Source: an archaeon GW2011_AR20 (GTDB lineage: Archaea > Nanobdellota > Nanobdellia > SCGC-AAA011-G17 > GW2011-AR20). From it: 32,336 nucleotides of DNA. Position 1 is the first letter of the stretch, and every line of letters begins with the position of its first letter. Shown one piece after another: positions 1 to 31,790 of this stretch. Position numbers and translations under genes: made by a program. The stretch spans positions 668,497-700,832 of the forward strand of contig CP010426.1 of NCBI GenBank assembly GCA_000830315.1. The letters run 5' to 3'. The notes beneath the pieces were generated by a model. That model saw nothing but the letters and a program-made list of their open reading frames with translations. It was not told the DNA's origin and searched no databases.

Positions 1-698
<698 letters not shown>

Positions 699-5808: not shown

Positions 5809-5904
5809 TGTGGGAGACAGGATTCGAACCTGCGAAGGCACTAAGCCATACGGTTTCTACAAATTGCCTTAGCCGTACCCATTTGACCACTTTGGTACTC
5901 CCAC
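5809..5904 (-). tRNA. tRNA-Leu, apparent anticodon AAG, with 12-nt intron
   Basis: A class II tRNA: acceptor GTGGGAG/CTCCCAC (5898-5904, 5810-5816), D-arm with TGGTCAAA, long variable arm (5834-5848, GGC/GCC), T-arm GCAGG-TTCGAAT-CCTGT and discriminator A73 (5809), all Leu-like. CCA is not encoded. The perfect anticodon stem TACGG/CCGTA encloses 19 nt, so an intron is required. Excising 5855-5866 at the standard 37/38 site leaves loop CTAAGGA, anticodon AAG. The precursor can form CTA/TAG pairs and a 3-nt AAA bulge, a relaxed bulge-helix-bulge. A TATA box (AATTTAAAATAAG, about 5922-5935) lies upstream. An A34 tRNA-Leu is unusual for archaea, so the splice site needs checking. Confidence 0.85.
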
Positions 5905-21018: not shown

Positions 21019-21129
21019 GCCGAGGTGGCACAACCTGGTACTGCGCAAGATTTCATAATGCGAACCTGGAAACTAGGTTAGAGAGCTTGTGCCCGCAAGG
21101 GCTTGAGGGTTCAAATCCCTCCTTCGGCG
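21019..21129 (+). tRNA. Class II tRNA, probably tRNA-Ser, with ~27-nt intron; anticodon unresolved (TGA favoured)
   Basis: Acceptor GCCGAGG/CTTCGGC (21019-21025, 21122-21128), discriminator G73 (21129), D-arm with TGGTA, long variable arm GCCC-GCAA-GGGC (about 21091-21102), T-arm GAGGG-TTCAAAT-CCCTC. The GCCGAGGTGGC start, class II arm and G73 point to Ser. The anticodon region is 44 nt instead of 17. Taking stem CAAGA/GCTTG (one A-G mismatch), removal of 27 nt (21054-21080) gives loop TTTGAGA, anticodon TGA. Alternatively the canonical Ser loop CTGGAAA (anticodon GGA) is present at 21066-21072 and GCAAG/CTTGT would frame it perfectly, but that would need two introns. TATA box AATTTATATATT at 20983-20994. 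Confidence 0.8.
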
Positions 21130-22173: not shown

Positions 22174-22878
22174 ATGACACAAGAAAATCAAACTCAAGGT
22201 TCAAATTTAGAGGATAGACTGTTACAGATAGGTAACTTAAATCATTTAAATAGACAGATAGATAAAACAAAATCGCCATCTGATCGTTTTCAACTTTATT
22301 CTAATTTAGCTGAAATATTAAGCGGCGGAGGGAAAGAGAATCCAGAGGACTACAAAAATATTTATGGAGACATAAGAGTAAGTCCTGAAGAGGCTGTAAG
22401 ATATGCTAGTGAGGGAATGAGCTCAAGGGCACACGATGCAGAAGAATTATATAAACAAAACAAAGAGAAAATAGTTGGGGAAGTTAGTTCTTCAATGAAT
22501 GATACTTTAAAAGGTTCTAAAAACAAAGCAGAAGCTGCTCAAAGACTATCACTTTACTTCACAGATTTAATAAAAGTTCCTGAAGTAGATCAAGCAACTC
22601 TTGATGAAATGGCTCAAGACAATTTGGCTAAAAGAGTCGGTGTTAGCATGAACTTCAGTGCTCGTGGAAGCATGGATAAATATGCAGAATTGCAGCAAAG
22701 AATGTACGCTGGCGAATTCATAAAAGAAGCAAAGAATGGAAATGAAACAACTTATGTTGTTGATGAAAGTAAATTAGGAAAAAATATGGACAACATCATA
22801 TATGGATCCACGGTCTACAGTAACAGCAAAGCAATAGAACAAGCTAAACAAAAAGAAGCTCAGAAAAAAGCTTCTTAA
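22174..22878 (+). CDS. Unknown soluble helical protein, operon gene 1
   Basis: 234 residues, no membrane segment or signal peptide. Predicted largely helical, with a disordered polar start (TQENQTQGSN) and a Lys/Gln/Ala-rich tail (EQAKQKEAQKKAS). Middle region: SPEEAVRYASEGMSSRAHDAEELY, then KAEAAQRLSLYFTDLIKV. No family recognised. AAGGAGG lies 16 nt upstream of the ATG, a longer spacing than usual; an ATG in another frame is not seen nearer. First gene of a five-gene unit with gaps of 16, 1, -4 and 7 nt. Confidence 0.8.
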   Translation: MTQENQTQGSNLEDRLLQIGNLNHLNRQIDKTKSPSDRFQLYSNLAEILSGGGKENPEDYKNIYGDIRVSPEEAVRYASEGMSSRAHDAEELYKQNKEKIVGEVSSSMNDTLKGSKNKAEAAQRLSLYFTDLIKVPEVDQATLDEMAQDNLAKRVGVSMNFSARGSMDKYAELQQRMYAGEFIKEAKNGNETTYVVDESKLGKNMDNIIYGSTVYSNSKAIEQAKQKEAQKKAS

Positions 22879-23291: not shown

Positions 23292-23723
23292 ATGACAAAT
23301 CTAATTTTATTTAATTCAGGTCAGGCAGCCGGATATTTTATTCTACAAAAGATTGGGCAATCTATGCAAGATGCCGCAAAAGCTAAGATAATCAATTATA
23401 GTTGGTTACAGGGACATTTAGAAGATATTGGTGTGCTTGGAACAGTCACTGCTGCAGGCTTAACAGTTGCTAAATTATTTTTTAATGATAATAAGTACGC
23501 AAGACTGGCATCGGTATTTGTTCCGCCGATATTAGCGACAATAGATGAGTTAAAAATTTTGAATCTAAATCCAAAAACAACAACATATGATCCGCAGGAC
23601 ATAGCATCTTTCTTTGCTGGAAGTTTGCTCGCTTATGGATTGTCTAAGGCAAATGATGAAGGTGTTTTCAAGAAAATGTTTAAGAAAAAATCACTTGAAG
23701 GAACGATAGAGGCGGGAAAATGA
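23292..23723 (+). CDS. Unknown protein with hydrophobic helices, operon gene 3
   Basis: 143 residues, starting 1 nt after gene 2. Three moderately hydrophobic stretches: about 42-64 (HLEDIGVLGTVTAAGLTVAKLFF), 70-87 (ARLASVFVPPILATIDEL) and 102-118 (DIASFFAGSLLAYGLSK), then a basic tail (KKMFKKKSLEG). Probably a membrane protein with the tail in the cytoplasm. No family recognised, though the size resembles VanZ-like small membrane proteins. The ATG of gene 4 overlaps its stop by 4 nt. Confidence 0.75.
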   Translation: MTNLILFNSGQAAGYFILQKIGQSMQDAAKAKIINYSWLQGHLEDIGVLGTVTAAGLTVAKLFFNDNKYARLASVFVPPILATIDELKILNLNPKTTTYDPQDIASFFAGSLLAYGLSKANDEGVFKKMFKKKSLEGTIEAGK

Positions 23724-24979
23724 CAAGAACATTATCACAAATAATAAAGCCAAAAATAAAGAAAATTGCTACGACAATAAGTACGGGCATCTTGGCCCTT
23801 CATCTATTGACTCAAACAAATCATAGCTTGAATAATCTTTATCATCATTTCCTTCCGGACAAACAACGACAAGAGTTTGTTAGAGAATTTGGATTTCCCC
23901 TCAAAGGTTTTGACAGTGATATAAGCGGATATATGGGAACTGGACTATATACTATTGGGGATGTTATATATAAAGAAATGTTGGAAAGGCCTTTTAGTCT
24001 ATCTTCTCTTTCAATAAGGTCTCCAAATTATTTTAAGGAATCAATATTTGATCAGATTGGATACATAATAACAACTGATAATGGTGGCTATTACGATCCT
24101 ATAACAGGAGCAATTGTTGTCGAGGATGGTTCTCCTAGTGCGCTTCATCATGAAATAAAACATAGGAAAACGTTTGAAATTGACAAAATTCATCCAGAAT
24201 TCTTAGAAAGATGGAAAAATCTGGCAAAAAGAAAGAACGGCGAGTCCATTTACAAACCCGGCTTGGAGCAGATATGTTTAAGATTTAGGCTGTTAAATAA
24301 GTTAGTTGATAATCCTTCAAATTATGAAGAAAATAATAGATATGGGTTCGTAAGTGATTATGCGAGAACAAATGTTTATGAAGATATTGCTGAATTGTGT
24401 GAGAAAGTTGAAAGTATATCTATACAGGGGGGGCTAAGTGAACTGTTTGATTACAGCCCAAAAACACATCAAAATCTTAGACCAAAAATACAACTTGCGC
24501 AGGAATATGGACTTATACCAAGAGAATTTGAAGATTTTATGGTCTTGACTTTAAAATATAGAAATCTTCATGGAGAGAATGGTTATTATGATAAATCTGG
24601 AGCTGAAGAATTTTTAAAGAATTTGGACGCGTTTGCTAAAAAACACCCTCGAAGTGTTTATACTGCTGATCTGAGAGAAGCAAAAGCAGGCGTGTACCAG
24701 AGTATGCTTGCGCTTAAAGATGTTAAAGATAAAGATGGGCAAAAGAAATTAATAGGATTATACAAAGATGTTCTTTTATCGCCATACAAGGACCGGGTAG
24801 CTTATGGTGTCAGTCTAACTAGATTAAAGGATTTGTATCGCAACCTTGGAGATATAAATAAATATGAGATATATGCTAAAGCAGATACTTTGCATTCCGA
24901 GAGATTCTTTGGGGGTTTTATGATGTTAAGCAAAGAGGGGGTTAATGATTTCTTAAAGGAAAAAGGAGAACTAAATTAG
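23720..24979 (+). CDS. Membrane-anchored zinc metallopeptidase, operon gene 4
   Basis: 419 residues. A basic start and a hydrophobic segment (residues about 15-31, KIATTISTGILALHLL) suggest a signal anchor. The zincin motif HEIKH is at 144-148, in the context of a metallopeptidase helix (SPSALHHEIKHRKTF). The segment YGFVSDYARTNVYEDIAEL (208-226) supplies an EDxAE-type acidic third ligand (E221 or E225), as in several extracellular zinc peptidase families. Residues about 285-400 are helical repeats (TPR-like; AEEFLKNLDAFAKKHPRSVY, LYKDVLLSPYKDRVAYGVSLTRLKDLYRNLGD). No exact family named; peptidase activity is inferred. Confidence 0.78.
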   Translation: MTRTLSQIIKPKIKKIATTISTGILALHLLTQTNHSLNNLYHHFLPDKQRQEFVREFGFPLKGFDSDISGYMGTGLYTIGDVIYKEMLERPFSLSSLSIRSPNYFKESIFDQIGYIITTDNGGYYDPITGAIVVEDGSPSALHHEIKHRKTFEIDKIHPEFLERWKNLAKRKNGESIYKPGLEQICLRFRLLNKLVDNPSNYEENNRYGFVSDYARTNVYEDIAELCEKVESISIQGGLSELFDYSPKTHQNLRPKIQLAQEYGLIPREFEDFMVLTLKYRNLHGENGYYDKSGAEEFLKNLDAFAKKHPRSVYTADLREAKAGVYQSMLALKDVKDKDGQKKLIGLYKDVLLSPYKDRVAYGVSLTRLKDLYRNLGDINKYEIYAKADTLHSERFFGGFMMLSKEGVNDFLKEKGELN

Positions 24980-29337: not shown

Positions 29338-30747
29338 TTACCAAGCAAACATACCGTGGCTTTTCTTGTAAATATCATACATTTTGTAGCATTTTGCCTT
29401 GGCATCTTCCTTTGCAGCTTCCCTTAATTTTTTTTCCTGAAAACTTTTATCAAATGAAGGTGACTTGAAATTTAACGTATCATAAACATATCCAAAGGGC
29501 TTAACAGCTTCCTTAAATCCCTTGGCTAATCCTTTAAATCCCTCAAATGGATTTGGTGCTTTTGGCTCTTCTTTTTTTTCTGACTCTGGTTTTCCTAAAA
29601 AATACTCTATATCTTCCTGAATTTCTTTTAAGCTTACTTCAGTCATTCCTTCAATTAATTCCAAGTCTTCTTCGGTTTTTAGCTTGTCCATCTCCGCAAG
29701 CTCTTTATCTGTGAATGAATATGCCCTAAAATTAACCTGCGTTTTTCCAGAATGCAAATAAATCAGGCCCTGCTGCGACTGCGTGGCCTTCGGAACTGTT
29801 CTAAAAAGAATTTCGGTTTCAATACATGAATTATAATTGGTGCCAAGGTCAAGGTTAGCATAGTCTTCATTAACCTGCCTCGGATCTATCTTTTTCTTTC
29901 CCATTAAAGTTAAGTGAATTTCAACATTGTTAAACAAATTCACGATATTCGGATTATTTGGACCGAAATTATTCATGCCGAGTTTTTTGGCTGCAATCAG
30001 ATACGGCTTGACCCATGCAGTATAATACTTTAATGAATTAACCTGCGACTTAAGATATGCCCTCTCAATATTAAAACGCTTTCTTAATTCCTTTTCCGAG
30101 TAATCTTTCCATTTTAAATATTCATTCAGCCTTGACTGCAAAATTCTCTTTACCCTATCATTTAAATCCAGGTTCTTAACATCTTCTTCGCTTTTCGCAT
30201 AAATAAATGCATCCCTTAATGTGACAAACTGCAATTCCCTGGCCAGCATGTTAATGCTTCCCCTGCCTCTTTTAATATCAACCTGATCCATCCACAAAAC
30301 CCTCAATGCAATCTCGGCACTTTCTTTTTTATCTTTATTTTCTGATTTAATGTCATCGTATGTTCCCAGCCTTATTTCAAATTCCCTTAAGTCATAGATT
30401 AAGTTTATCACGCTTCTAACAACTGTATTAATTGTGCCCATCATTTTCATTGCCTGTTCCTGCATCCTTGTTGCCTTGGTTCCAAGATCAGAGAAAAATC
30501 CAGAGCCGACAGCTGCTTCATACTCATCTTTGCTTTTAATAACCTCGTCCATTCCCAATCCATTTGGCTTTTGATCCTGCATAAAATCAAGTATCCAGAA
30601 ATATATTGGCTCTAATCCTTCTGCCAATGAATCATACTGGATCACATACAAAGGATTGTTATTCTTTGTTGCGCTTGCATTTTTTTTAATCTCCTCAATT
30701 TTTTCACTGGGAGATTTTTCTTTTTCCTGAGAAGCTAGTTCTGGCAT
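29338..30747 (-). CDS. Unknown large protein, first gene of the TIM-barrel operon
   Basis: 469 residues from ATG 30747, which has GAGGTG 4-9 nt upstream; the GTG two codons earlier is part of that site. TATA ACTTTATATATC about 30768-30779. The protein is helical in its middle (MQEQAMKMMGTINTVVRSVINLIYDLREFEIRLG, LQFVTLRDAFIYAKSEEDVKNL) with a mixed region (NIVNLFNNVEIHLTLMGKKKIDPRQ ... SCIETEILFRTVPKA) and a basic C-terminal end. No membrane helix or known motif. It is divergent from LspA. Confidence 0.75.
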   Translation of the reverse strand: MPELASQEKEKSPSEKIEEIKKNASATKNNNPLYVIQYDSLAEGLEPIYFWILDFMQDQKPNGLGMDEVIKSKDEYEAAVGSGFFSDLGTKATRMQEQAMKMMGTINTVVRSVINLIYDLREFEIRLGTYDDIKSENKDKKESAEIALRVLWMDQVDIKRGRGSINMLARELQFVTLRDAFIYAKSEEDVKNLDLNDRVKRILQSRLNEYLKWKDYSEKELRKRFNIERAYLKSQVNSLKYYTAWVKPYLIAAKKLGMNNFGPNNPNIVNLFNNVEIHLTLMGKKKIDPRQVNEDYANLDLGTNYNSCIETEILFRTVPKATQSQQGLIYLHSGKTQVNFRAYSFTDKELAEMDKLKTEEDLELIEGMTEVSLKEIQEDIEYFLGKPESEKKEEPKAPNPFEGFKGLAKGFKEAVKPFGYVYDTLNFKSPSFDKSFQEKKLREAAKEDAKAKCYKMYDIYKKSHGMFAW

Positions 30748-30798
30748 TTTCACCTCTTCATAAAAAGATATATAAAGTAGCTATATAAAGTTTTTGTT

Positions 30799-31146
30799 AT
30801 GTTGCTTATAATTTTGCTTATTATTCTGGACCAATTGACCAAATATTTTCTTGGCGACGTTAAAAATTACGGGGCTGCTTTCGGAATATTGCAGGGTTAC
30901 ACTACATTATTGATAATCGTAAGTTTGGCTGTAGCTGGTGTTTGTGCTTATTACTACAAAGAAAAAAATTTAAGAGTAGGATTAAGTTTTTTATTGGCAG
31001 GAACAATCAGCAATTTAATAGACAGAATTTTTCTTGGGTATGTTAGAGATTTTATTGACTTAAAATTTTGGCCAGTATTTAACTTAGCAGATAGTTTCAA
31101 TGTCATTGGAGTAATCTTAATTATTTATTTAAGTCTGAAAAAATAA
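30799..31146 (+). CDS. lspA: Signal peptidase II (LspA) homologue
   Basis: 115 residues, shorter than bacterial LspA (about 150-170) but with all hallmark blocks: DQLTKYF (11-17), N-x-GAAFGIL (23-31), NLIDRI (72-77), GYVRDFIDL (80-88) and FNLADS (94-99). The two catalytic aspartates (VRDF and NLAD blocks) are present. Four hydrophobic helices. LspA cleaves the signal peptide of lipoproteins before the lipid-bearing Cys. TATA GCTATATAAAG (about 30779-30789) 10-20 nt before the ATG. The next gene encodes a lipobox protein. LspA is widely regarded as bacterial, so presence in an archaeon is notable. Confidence 0.9.
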   Translation: MLLIILLIILDQLTKYFLGDVKNYGAAFGILQGYTTLLIIVSLAVAGVCAYYYKEKNLRVGLSFLLAGTISNLIDRIFLGYVRDFIDLKFWPVFNLADSFNVIGVILIIYLSLKK

Positions 31147-31223
31147 TTGCTATAAATTAATCCCCTTTAATCAATTATTAAATGTTTAAAAAGATTTTTA
31201 AATAGAAAAAGTTTAGCATTTTC

Positions 31224-31230
31224 GGGGTTA
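31224..31230 (+). promoter_or_regulatory. GGGGTTA 5' leader motif (lipoprotein gene)
   Basis: GGGGTTA at about +26 from the TATA centre (TTTTTAAATAG, 31195-31205), followed by AAATAATG. Shared with thermosome, 18482 and EF-1A genes. Confidence 0.55.
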
Positions 31231-31235
31231 AAATA

Positions 31236-31790
31236 ATGAAGATATATTCTTTGTTTGGATTAATTTTAATTAGTTTAATATTTATATCTAGTTGTAACTC
31301 ACAAACTCAAGTTACCCCCGTTTGTAATAAGCCTTATCTTTTAGTTGGAGAAGGTTGTTGTTTAGACCAAAATGATAATTCAATTTGTGATAAAGATGAA
31401 TCTGATAACAATAAAAGTATTTTATTAGATAGACCAGTTCAGGCTTTAACAGTAGAAGAATGTACTTCCAATAATTATTTTGATTGCCCTTATAGTTATA
31501 TTCATAAAGATTCAATAGAATTTAACTTAAAGGTTACAAAAGCAGGAAGACTCGTTATAACCAAAATAGACCTTCCTAATGTTCCATGTCAAAAAACTTT
31601 TGAAGATAATCCTATATTTTTGGAGTATAATGATGTTACGAAATTTATTCTAAAATGCGATATAAAGAAAGATGCTGTTGGATCCGATATAATTATAGAT
31701 TTAATTTATTATGAATGGGATGCTTATGGGTATTATAAAGAGCCTCAAAGGATAACAGCGAAAAGTTGGATTAGTGGAATAGTGAGATGA
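31236..31790 (+). CDS. Putative lipoprotein with lipobox
   Basis: 184 residues. Signal peptide of about 19 residues (SLFGLILISLIFISSC) ends in a lipobox I-S-S-C, so Cys20 would be lipidated. The mature part has a Cys-rich motif VGEGCCLDQNDNSICDKDE, a pattern seen in extracytoplasmic proteins of DPANN archaea, possibly disulfide or calcium binding, and a beta-rich domain (GRLVITKIDLPNVPCQKT ... KFILKCDIKKDAVGSDIIIDLIYYEWDAYGYY). It has its own promoter and GGGGTTA leader, 89 nt after lspA. Likely a substrate of the LspA homologue. Confidence 0.8.
   Translation: MKIYSLFGLILISLIFISSCNSQTQVTPVCNKPYLLVGEGCCLDQNDNSICDKDESDNNKSILLDRPVQALTVEECTSNNYFDCPYSYIHKDSIEFNLKVTKAGRLVITKIDLPNVPCQKTFEDNPIFLEYNDVTKFILKCDIKKDAVGSDIIIDLIYYEWDAYGYYKEPQRITAKSWISGIVR

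Follow-up and report, generated by a model that had tools for sequence, protein, structure and literature searches.

A compact bacterial-type signal peptidase II and its probable lipoprotein pathway in woesearchaeal archaea

Here we analysed a stretch of 32,336 nucleotides (hereafter the window) from the genome of the archaeon GW2011_AR20. Our findings make it very probable that the window encodes the second enzyme, LspA, of a bacterial-type lipoprotein pathway which has been retained by Woesearchaeota and by much of their phylum. The presence of the genes for both LspA and Lgt, the conservation of catalytic residues, the predicted LspA fold, the co-occurrence of the two enzymes and an excess of lipobox proteins are established directly. 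Both enzymes belong to known families, and databases likely carry automatically assigned "signal peptidase II" labels for such proteins; what is new is their archaeal context, the donor lipid that they probably use and the compact form of LspA. According to a 2022 review, no archaeal signal peptidase II had so far been identified (PMC7613921); a 2025 review knows of no archaeal homologues of the bacterial lipoprotein enzymes (PMC12186497), and Lgt is absent from archaea according to a 2026 survey (PMC13251419). None of the papers surveyed links Lgt or LspA with Woesearchaeota or DPANN in a relevant way; homologues of this kind could be mentioned in a paper beyond that survey (Hong et al. 2025; Nat Commun 16:8411). 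The occurrence of Lgt and LspA in approximately 70-75% of the genomes sampled from the phylum, with matching substrates, corrects the general statement of a divide between the domains.

The LspA gene and its archaeal setting

The initial annotation read all five LspA blocks, both catalytic Asp regions included, in a 115-residue open reading frame, and each of them is indeed present (table 1). The product matches PF01252 (Peptidase_A8) of Pfam with 94.6 bits (E=8.4e-27; curated cut-off 25), a score far above chance level. On the NCBIfam equivalog TIGR00077 it obtains 62.4 bits, below a cut-off (73.95) that is a naming threshold and not a biochemical criterion; the profile aligned from position 52 only, and the shortfall fits the segment missing from LspA between DQxTK and NxG. 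By sequence, the solved LspA proteins 6ryo and 5dir are recovered at 1.4e-15 and 6.7e-07, respectively (phmmer). The AlphaFold model, built with 39 sequences, has a mean pLDDT of 93.8 and a pTM of 0.86; in Foldseek it aligns with PDB 6ryp at a TM score of 0.88 by query length (E 6.1e-08) and with 5dir at 0.76-0.80, LspA structures being its only significant PDB fold matches. The four transmembrane helices and the beta cradle of the LspA fold are thus found in the model, with the cradle segment shortened.

Sequence conservation follows the same pattern. When aligned with 30 relatives, the blocks DQxTK, NxGAAF, GxxxNLxDR, VxDF and FNxAD are invariant or nearly so, with D11, K15, N23, G25, G68, N72, R76, D84, F94, N95, A97 and D98 identical throughout. 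The conservation of the catalytic Asp residues in homologues, put forward as a test when the gene was first noticed, extends further: both motifs are retained in 88 of 88 archaeal LspA rows. Upstream of the gene, the position of a possible TATA element, about 25 nt from the ATG, would suggest a leaderless transcript; no RNA structure was detected upstream of lspA (z 0.93), and no relatives of this LspA were found in viral contigs.

Table 1.—Features of the window discussed in the text.
Feature	Position	Strand	Basis
5' half of archaeal SSU rRNA gene	1..698	-	RF01959, 629.8 bits in window
Conserved divergent neighbour, 471 aa, no known family	29338..30753	-	homologues at lspA loci
Possible archaeal TATA element ATATAAAG, about 25 nt before lspA ATG	30770..30777	+	read from sequence
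lspA, compact signal peptidase II (prolipoprotein signal peptidase), 115 aa, ATG	30799..31146	+	PF01252, AlphaFold, Foldseek
DQLTK block (D11, K15), end of first transmembrane helix	30829..30843	+	D11, K15 invariant (31-sequence alignment)
NYGAAF block (N23, G25, F28), 7 residues past K15	30865..30882	+	alignment, spacing survey
GTISNLIDR block (G68, N72, D75, R76)	31000..31026	+	G68, N72, R76 invariant; D75 nearly
Catalytic Asp D84 in VRDFI (V82-R-D84-F-I)	31048..31050	+	invariant; motif in 88/88 archaeal rows
NLAD block after F94; catalytic Asp D98 at 31090-31092	31081..31092	+	F94, N95, A97, D98 invariant
Predicted 184-aa lipoprotein; mature part rich in Cys, with module CNKPY..GCCLDQNDNSICDKDE	31236..31790	+	ORF, lipobox census
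Lipobox I-S-S-C, Cys+1 codon 31293-31295	31284..31295	+	sequence; such Cys over-represented in genome, P=6e-4

The window sits in a single contig of 829,411 bp. The SSU rRNA gene, the 5' half of which opens the window, is archaeal over its whole length (1390 bits) and adjoins an archaeal LSU rRNA, with lspA some 30 kb from the 16S rRNA gene. Other genes in the window encode the ribosomal proteins S9, L13, S11 and S13, an Rpb3/RpoA-type RNA polymerase subunit, an elongation factor with an eEF1A-type C-terminal domain, a TCP-1/Cpn60-family chaperonin, Kae1/TsaD and DUF655, and the closest named relatives of the window LspA are Candidatus Woesearchaeota archaea. Rfam recognizes two tRNA genes that ARAGORN misses in bacterial mode, one of 96 bases (5809-5904, minus strand) and one of 111 bases (21019-21129, plus strand); both probably contain introns. 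Two sizeable open reading frames on the plus strand (22174-22878 and 23720-24979), downstream of a SIMPL-domain gene, have no Pfam match.

Immediately upstream of lspA, on the opposite strand, lies a gene for a 471-residue protein, a homologue of which occupies the same place at 25 of 49 loci from the own genome, its family and its order (families f1, f2, f6, f7, f10, f13, f15, f18 and f20); it was seen at none of the bacterial lspA loci examined. With this conserved neighbour, lspA is firmly assigned to the archaeal lineage. The protein itself is probably not a lipoprotein enzyme, since a homologue occurs in a genome without Lgt and LspA (L273). Since the literature treats both LspA and Lgt as bacterial enzymes (PMC13251419), lspA might be taken for bacterial contamination or the product of a chimeric assembly, as the initial annotation had itself cautioned. 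Such an origin is extremely improbable: archaeal rRNAs, EF-1A, chaperonin and ribosomal-protein genes share the one 829-kb contig with lspA, LspA occurs in 90 of 99 relatives, including 46 of 47 good-quality genomes, the archaeal-specific divergent neighbour is conserved across families, and the archaeal Lgt rows group by lineage.

Substrates and the Lgt partner

The gene following lspA had been described as encoding a signal peptide that ends in I-S-S-C, and such a product, starting MKIYSLFGLILISLIFISS/CNSQ (here and below, the slash precedes the lipobox Cys), is found there: a Sec-type signal peptide with the lipobox. It has no match in Pfam or NCBIfam. A conserved linkage between lspA and this lipobox gene was considered and rejected, as the 184-residue protein has no full-length homologue beside lspA in relatives. 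Its Cys module, C-x(10)-CCLDQNxNxICDxDE, follows a lipobox anchor in the window; in a relative (L157:4636-5388) it is anchored by a transmembrane helix at the N-terminus instead, which suggests that lipobox and transmembrane helix are interchangeable anchors for this module.

Other lipobox proteins, whose presence in the genome had been named as a test, do occur. The census sampled 432 kb (52%) of the own genome; in this portion, Cys+1 in a strict signal-peptide and lipobox context was observed five times against 0.68 expected (P=6e-4). These are LISA/CSEV, ALSG/CKQQ, FIAG/CSSS, in a protein with a cupredoxin domain, FISG/CTPN and FISS/CNSQ, the last being the window gene. Three more genomes with both Lgt and LspA carry 3, 4 and 6 lipobox Cys (P=0.012, 0.0015 and 6e-6, respectively) in samples of 120-140 kb per genome, and none was seen in 372 kb from four genomes of the phylum that lack both enzymes. 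Altogether, lipobox Cys account for 18 of 195 contexts in the genomes with both enzymes (832 kb) versus 0 of 60 in those without (P=0.009), a control of moderate strength given that the four negative genomes represent three families only; contexts and gene calls came from a simple script, and the lipobox numbers per genome are small. One relative (G102) contains a small lipoprotein cluster, three consecutive lipobox genes with LILAG/CGQS, VILAG/CEQG and MLLAG/CGEQ (L298:4249-7091).

An archaeon processing lipoproteins by LspA was foreseen to need a diacylglyceryl-type transfer onto ether lipids. A transferase of this type, a bacterial-type Lgt, is encoded in the own genome, as well as in 92 of the 99 relatives (PF01790). 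The gene lies on the same contig, on the minus strand (C1:564158-564904; PF01790 at C1:564179-564883), approximately 135 kb from lspA. Its product matches PF01790 over the full length (226 bits; profile positions 1-237 of 240; cut-off 24.9) and E. coli Lgt, 5azb, at 5.5e-38. In E. coli Lgt, Y26, H103, R143, N146, G154 and R239 are required (PMC13251419); equivalents of H103, R143, N146, E151 and R239, which the same paper gives as conserved or required, are found in the own Lgt. It deviates in two places: E. coli E243 is replaced by Asp, and QIY is followed by Met instead of the usual Glu. R143 is retained in 57 of 57 archaeal Lgt rows and R239 in 56.

The two enzymes are distributed together. 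Among 279 genomes sampled evenly across the window's phylum, Lgt is present in 207 and LspA in 199; 189 genomes have both, 18 have Lgt only, 10 LspA only and 62 neither, an association with a Fisher P of about 1e-34 when shared ancestry is ignored. Among 14 named controls, LspA and Lgt were each found in bacteria only, the archaeal controls having neither. The initial reading of a bacterial-type LspA in an archaeon is borne out, and the enzyme is more widespread than that reading implied. It could be argued that LspA and Lgt are real enzymes with few substrates or another role (e.g. the cleavage of transmembrane stubs without lipidation), the lipobox signal being coincidental. We consider this unlikely: just five lipobox proteins in the 432 kb sampled from this organism, and a compact LspA that has lost part of its first extramembrane segment, would suit such a role, yet the excess of Cys is significant, is repeated in three positive genomes and is absent in the negatives, the catalytic residues are fully conserved, and the tight co-occurrence of Lgt and LspA fits a two-step pathway.

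Compaction of LspA and history of the two enzymes

The length of LspA is itself variable. In the window protein, seven residues separate the Lys of DQxTK from the Asn of NxGAAF, against 25-26 in most bacteria, approximately 19 being missing. The spacer measures about 21-26 residues in other families of the archaeal class and about 19-21 in several families of the window's order, with 15 or 11 in some; it is exactly 7 in all eleven LspA rows of family f1 and 7-8 in f7 and f15. Judged from these lengths, the series of about 26, 20, 15, 11 and 7 gives the appearance of a first extramembrane segment lost step by step, a natural deletion series. In bacterial LspA this segment helps to form the beta cradle (5dir and 6ryo structures). 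The overall fold is retained in the model despite the shortening; with some 19 residues gone, substrate handling by the compact LspA may differ.

Both enzymes would have been acquired from bacteria in ancient times. The LspA tree, which is too short for resolving origins, contains 12 changes of domain label, and a single origin is compatible with its starred branches. For Lgt, a maximum-likelihood analysis, which covered 57 rows from archaea and 43 from bacteria other than Patescibacteria, groups 55 of the archaeal rows with a bacterial branch of seven rows, including Pseudomonadota, Coriobacteriia and Eremiobacterota, inside an unresolved fork. The other two rows (L065 of f18 and L066 of f6), from the same order, have different bacterial neighbours in the tree from those of the main archaeal group. 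A single clade of the 55 is not rejected (AU 0.377) and one of all 57 is weakly rejected (0.036), so that these two Lgt probably represent a separate acquisition. The simplest reading is one old acquisition of Lgt, subsequently inherited, plus at least one later one.

The proposed pathway, its lipid donor and known systems

In the pathway that we propose, proteins carrying a lipobox together with a Sec signal peptide would be exported, and Lgt would move a glycerol-linked lipid from a phosphatidylglycerol-like phospholipid onto the Cys thiol of the lipobox. The compact LspA would then cut the signal peptide directly before the lipidated Cys, by means of its Asp84/Asp98 pair, and the mature protein would stay anchored via its lipidated N-terminal Cys. 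The activity of the enzymes, the order of the steps and the donor lipid are what we infer from the genomes.

As to the donor, the own genome shows no match to CarS (PF01864), GGGPS (PF01884) or PlsC (PF01553); its lipids are therefore probably scavenged, or the enzymes are too divergent for the models. A match to PF01884 is likewise lacking in all 41 genomes of the order that were searched (the own genome and 40 relatives). CarS is encoded in 112 of the 279 phylum genomes and in 91 of the 189 with both Lgt and LspA, which indicates that the two enzymes coexist with ether-lipid synthesis in many relatives. We had considered the absence of PF01884 as strong evidence against ether lipids and dropped it, since genomes with CarS are themselves largely missed by this model, with marginal scores or none.

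We tentatively suggest, as a reading that comes close to an even chance, that a large share of this archaeal phylum makes lipoproteins by a bacterial-type Lgt and LspA adapted to archaeal ether phospholipids, with an archaetidylglycerol-type donor and archaeol on the Cys. This would constitute a third archaeal route beside AliA/AliB and archaeosortase, with an LspA that in one family has shed about 19 residues of the first extramembrane segment. It is also possible, with a probability that stays clearly short of even, that the same pathway operates with ester phospholipids taken by Lgt from a bacterial host, the anchor being an ordinary diacylglyceryl. Some Woesearchaeota have bacterial isoprenoid and fatty-acid genes and were proposed to be episymbionts of bacteria (PMC8204110), which, together with the probable scavenging of lipids in the own genome and the bacterial type of its Lgt, with the bacterial headgroup-binding Arg residues, speaks for an ester donor. 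Conversely, nearly half of the genomes with Lgt and LspA encode the CDP-archaeol synthase CarS, PF01884 is a weak test in the phylum, and in Haloferax, an ether-lipid host, diphytanylglyceryl is put on Cys, there by other enzymes (cited in PMC13251419).

Whichever the donor, a complete enzyme pair is now open to assay, and the use of ester or ether lipids by Lgt becomes directly testable. The pair also provides a handle on the surface proteins and the lipid source of little-known, probably host-dependent archaea.

The window LspA shares with bacterial LspA (PF01252; PDB 6ryo/6ryp and 5dir) the conserved blocks, the Asp dyad, the four-helix fold and a small beta cradle, and differs from it in its length of 115 residues, the 7-residue spacer between DQxTK and NxGAAF, the archaeal host and a gene that does not adjoin lgt. 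The own Lgt resembles bacterial Lgt (PF01790; PDB 5azb/5azc) in being full length and in the equivalents of the five residues listed above; most archaeal Lgt rows, on the other hand, form one large group, into which the branch with Pseudomonadota and Coriobacteriia falls, and the membrane of the host may be made of ether lipid. In haloarchaea, AliA and AliB likewise serve the lipidation of a lipobox Cys in an archaeon; however, they are not homologous to the bacterial enzymes (PMC12186497, PMC13251419), whereas those of the window organism are of the bacterial kind. With the bacterial two-step pathway, Lgt followed by LspA without Lnt, the woesearchaeal system shares both enzymes and lipobox substrates; it differs in being found in archaea, across a sample of their phylum.
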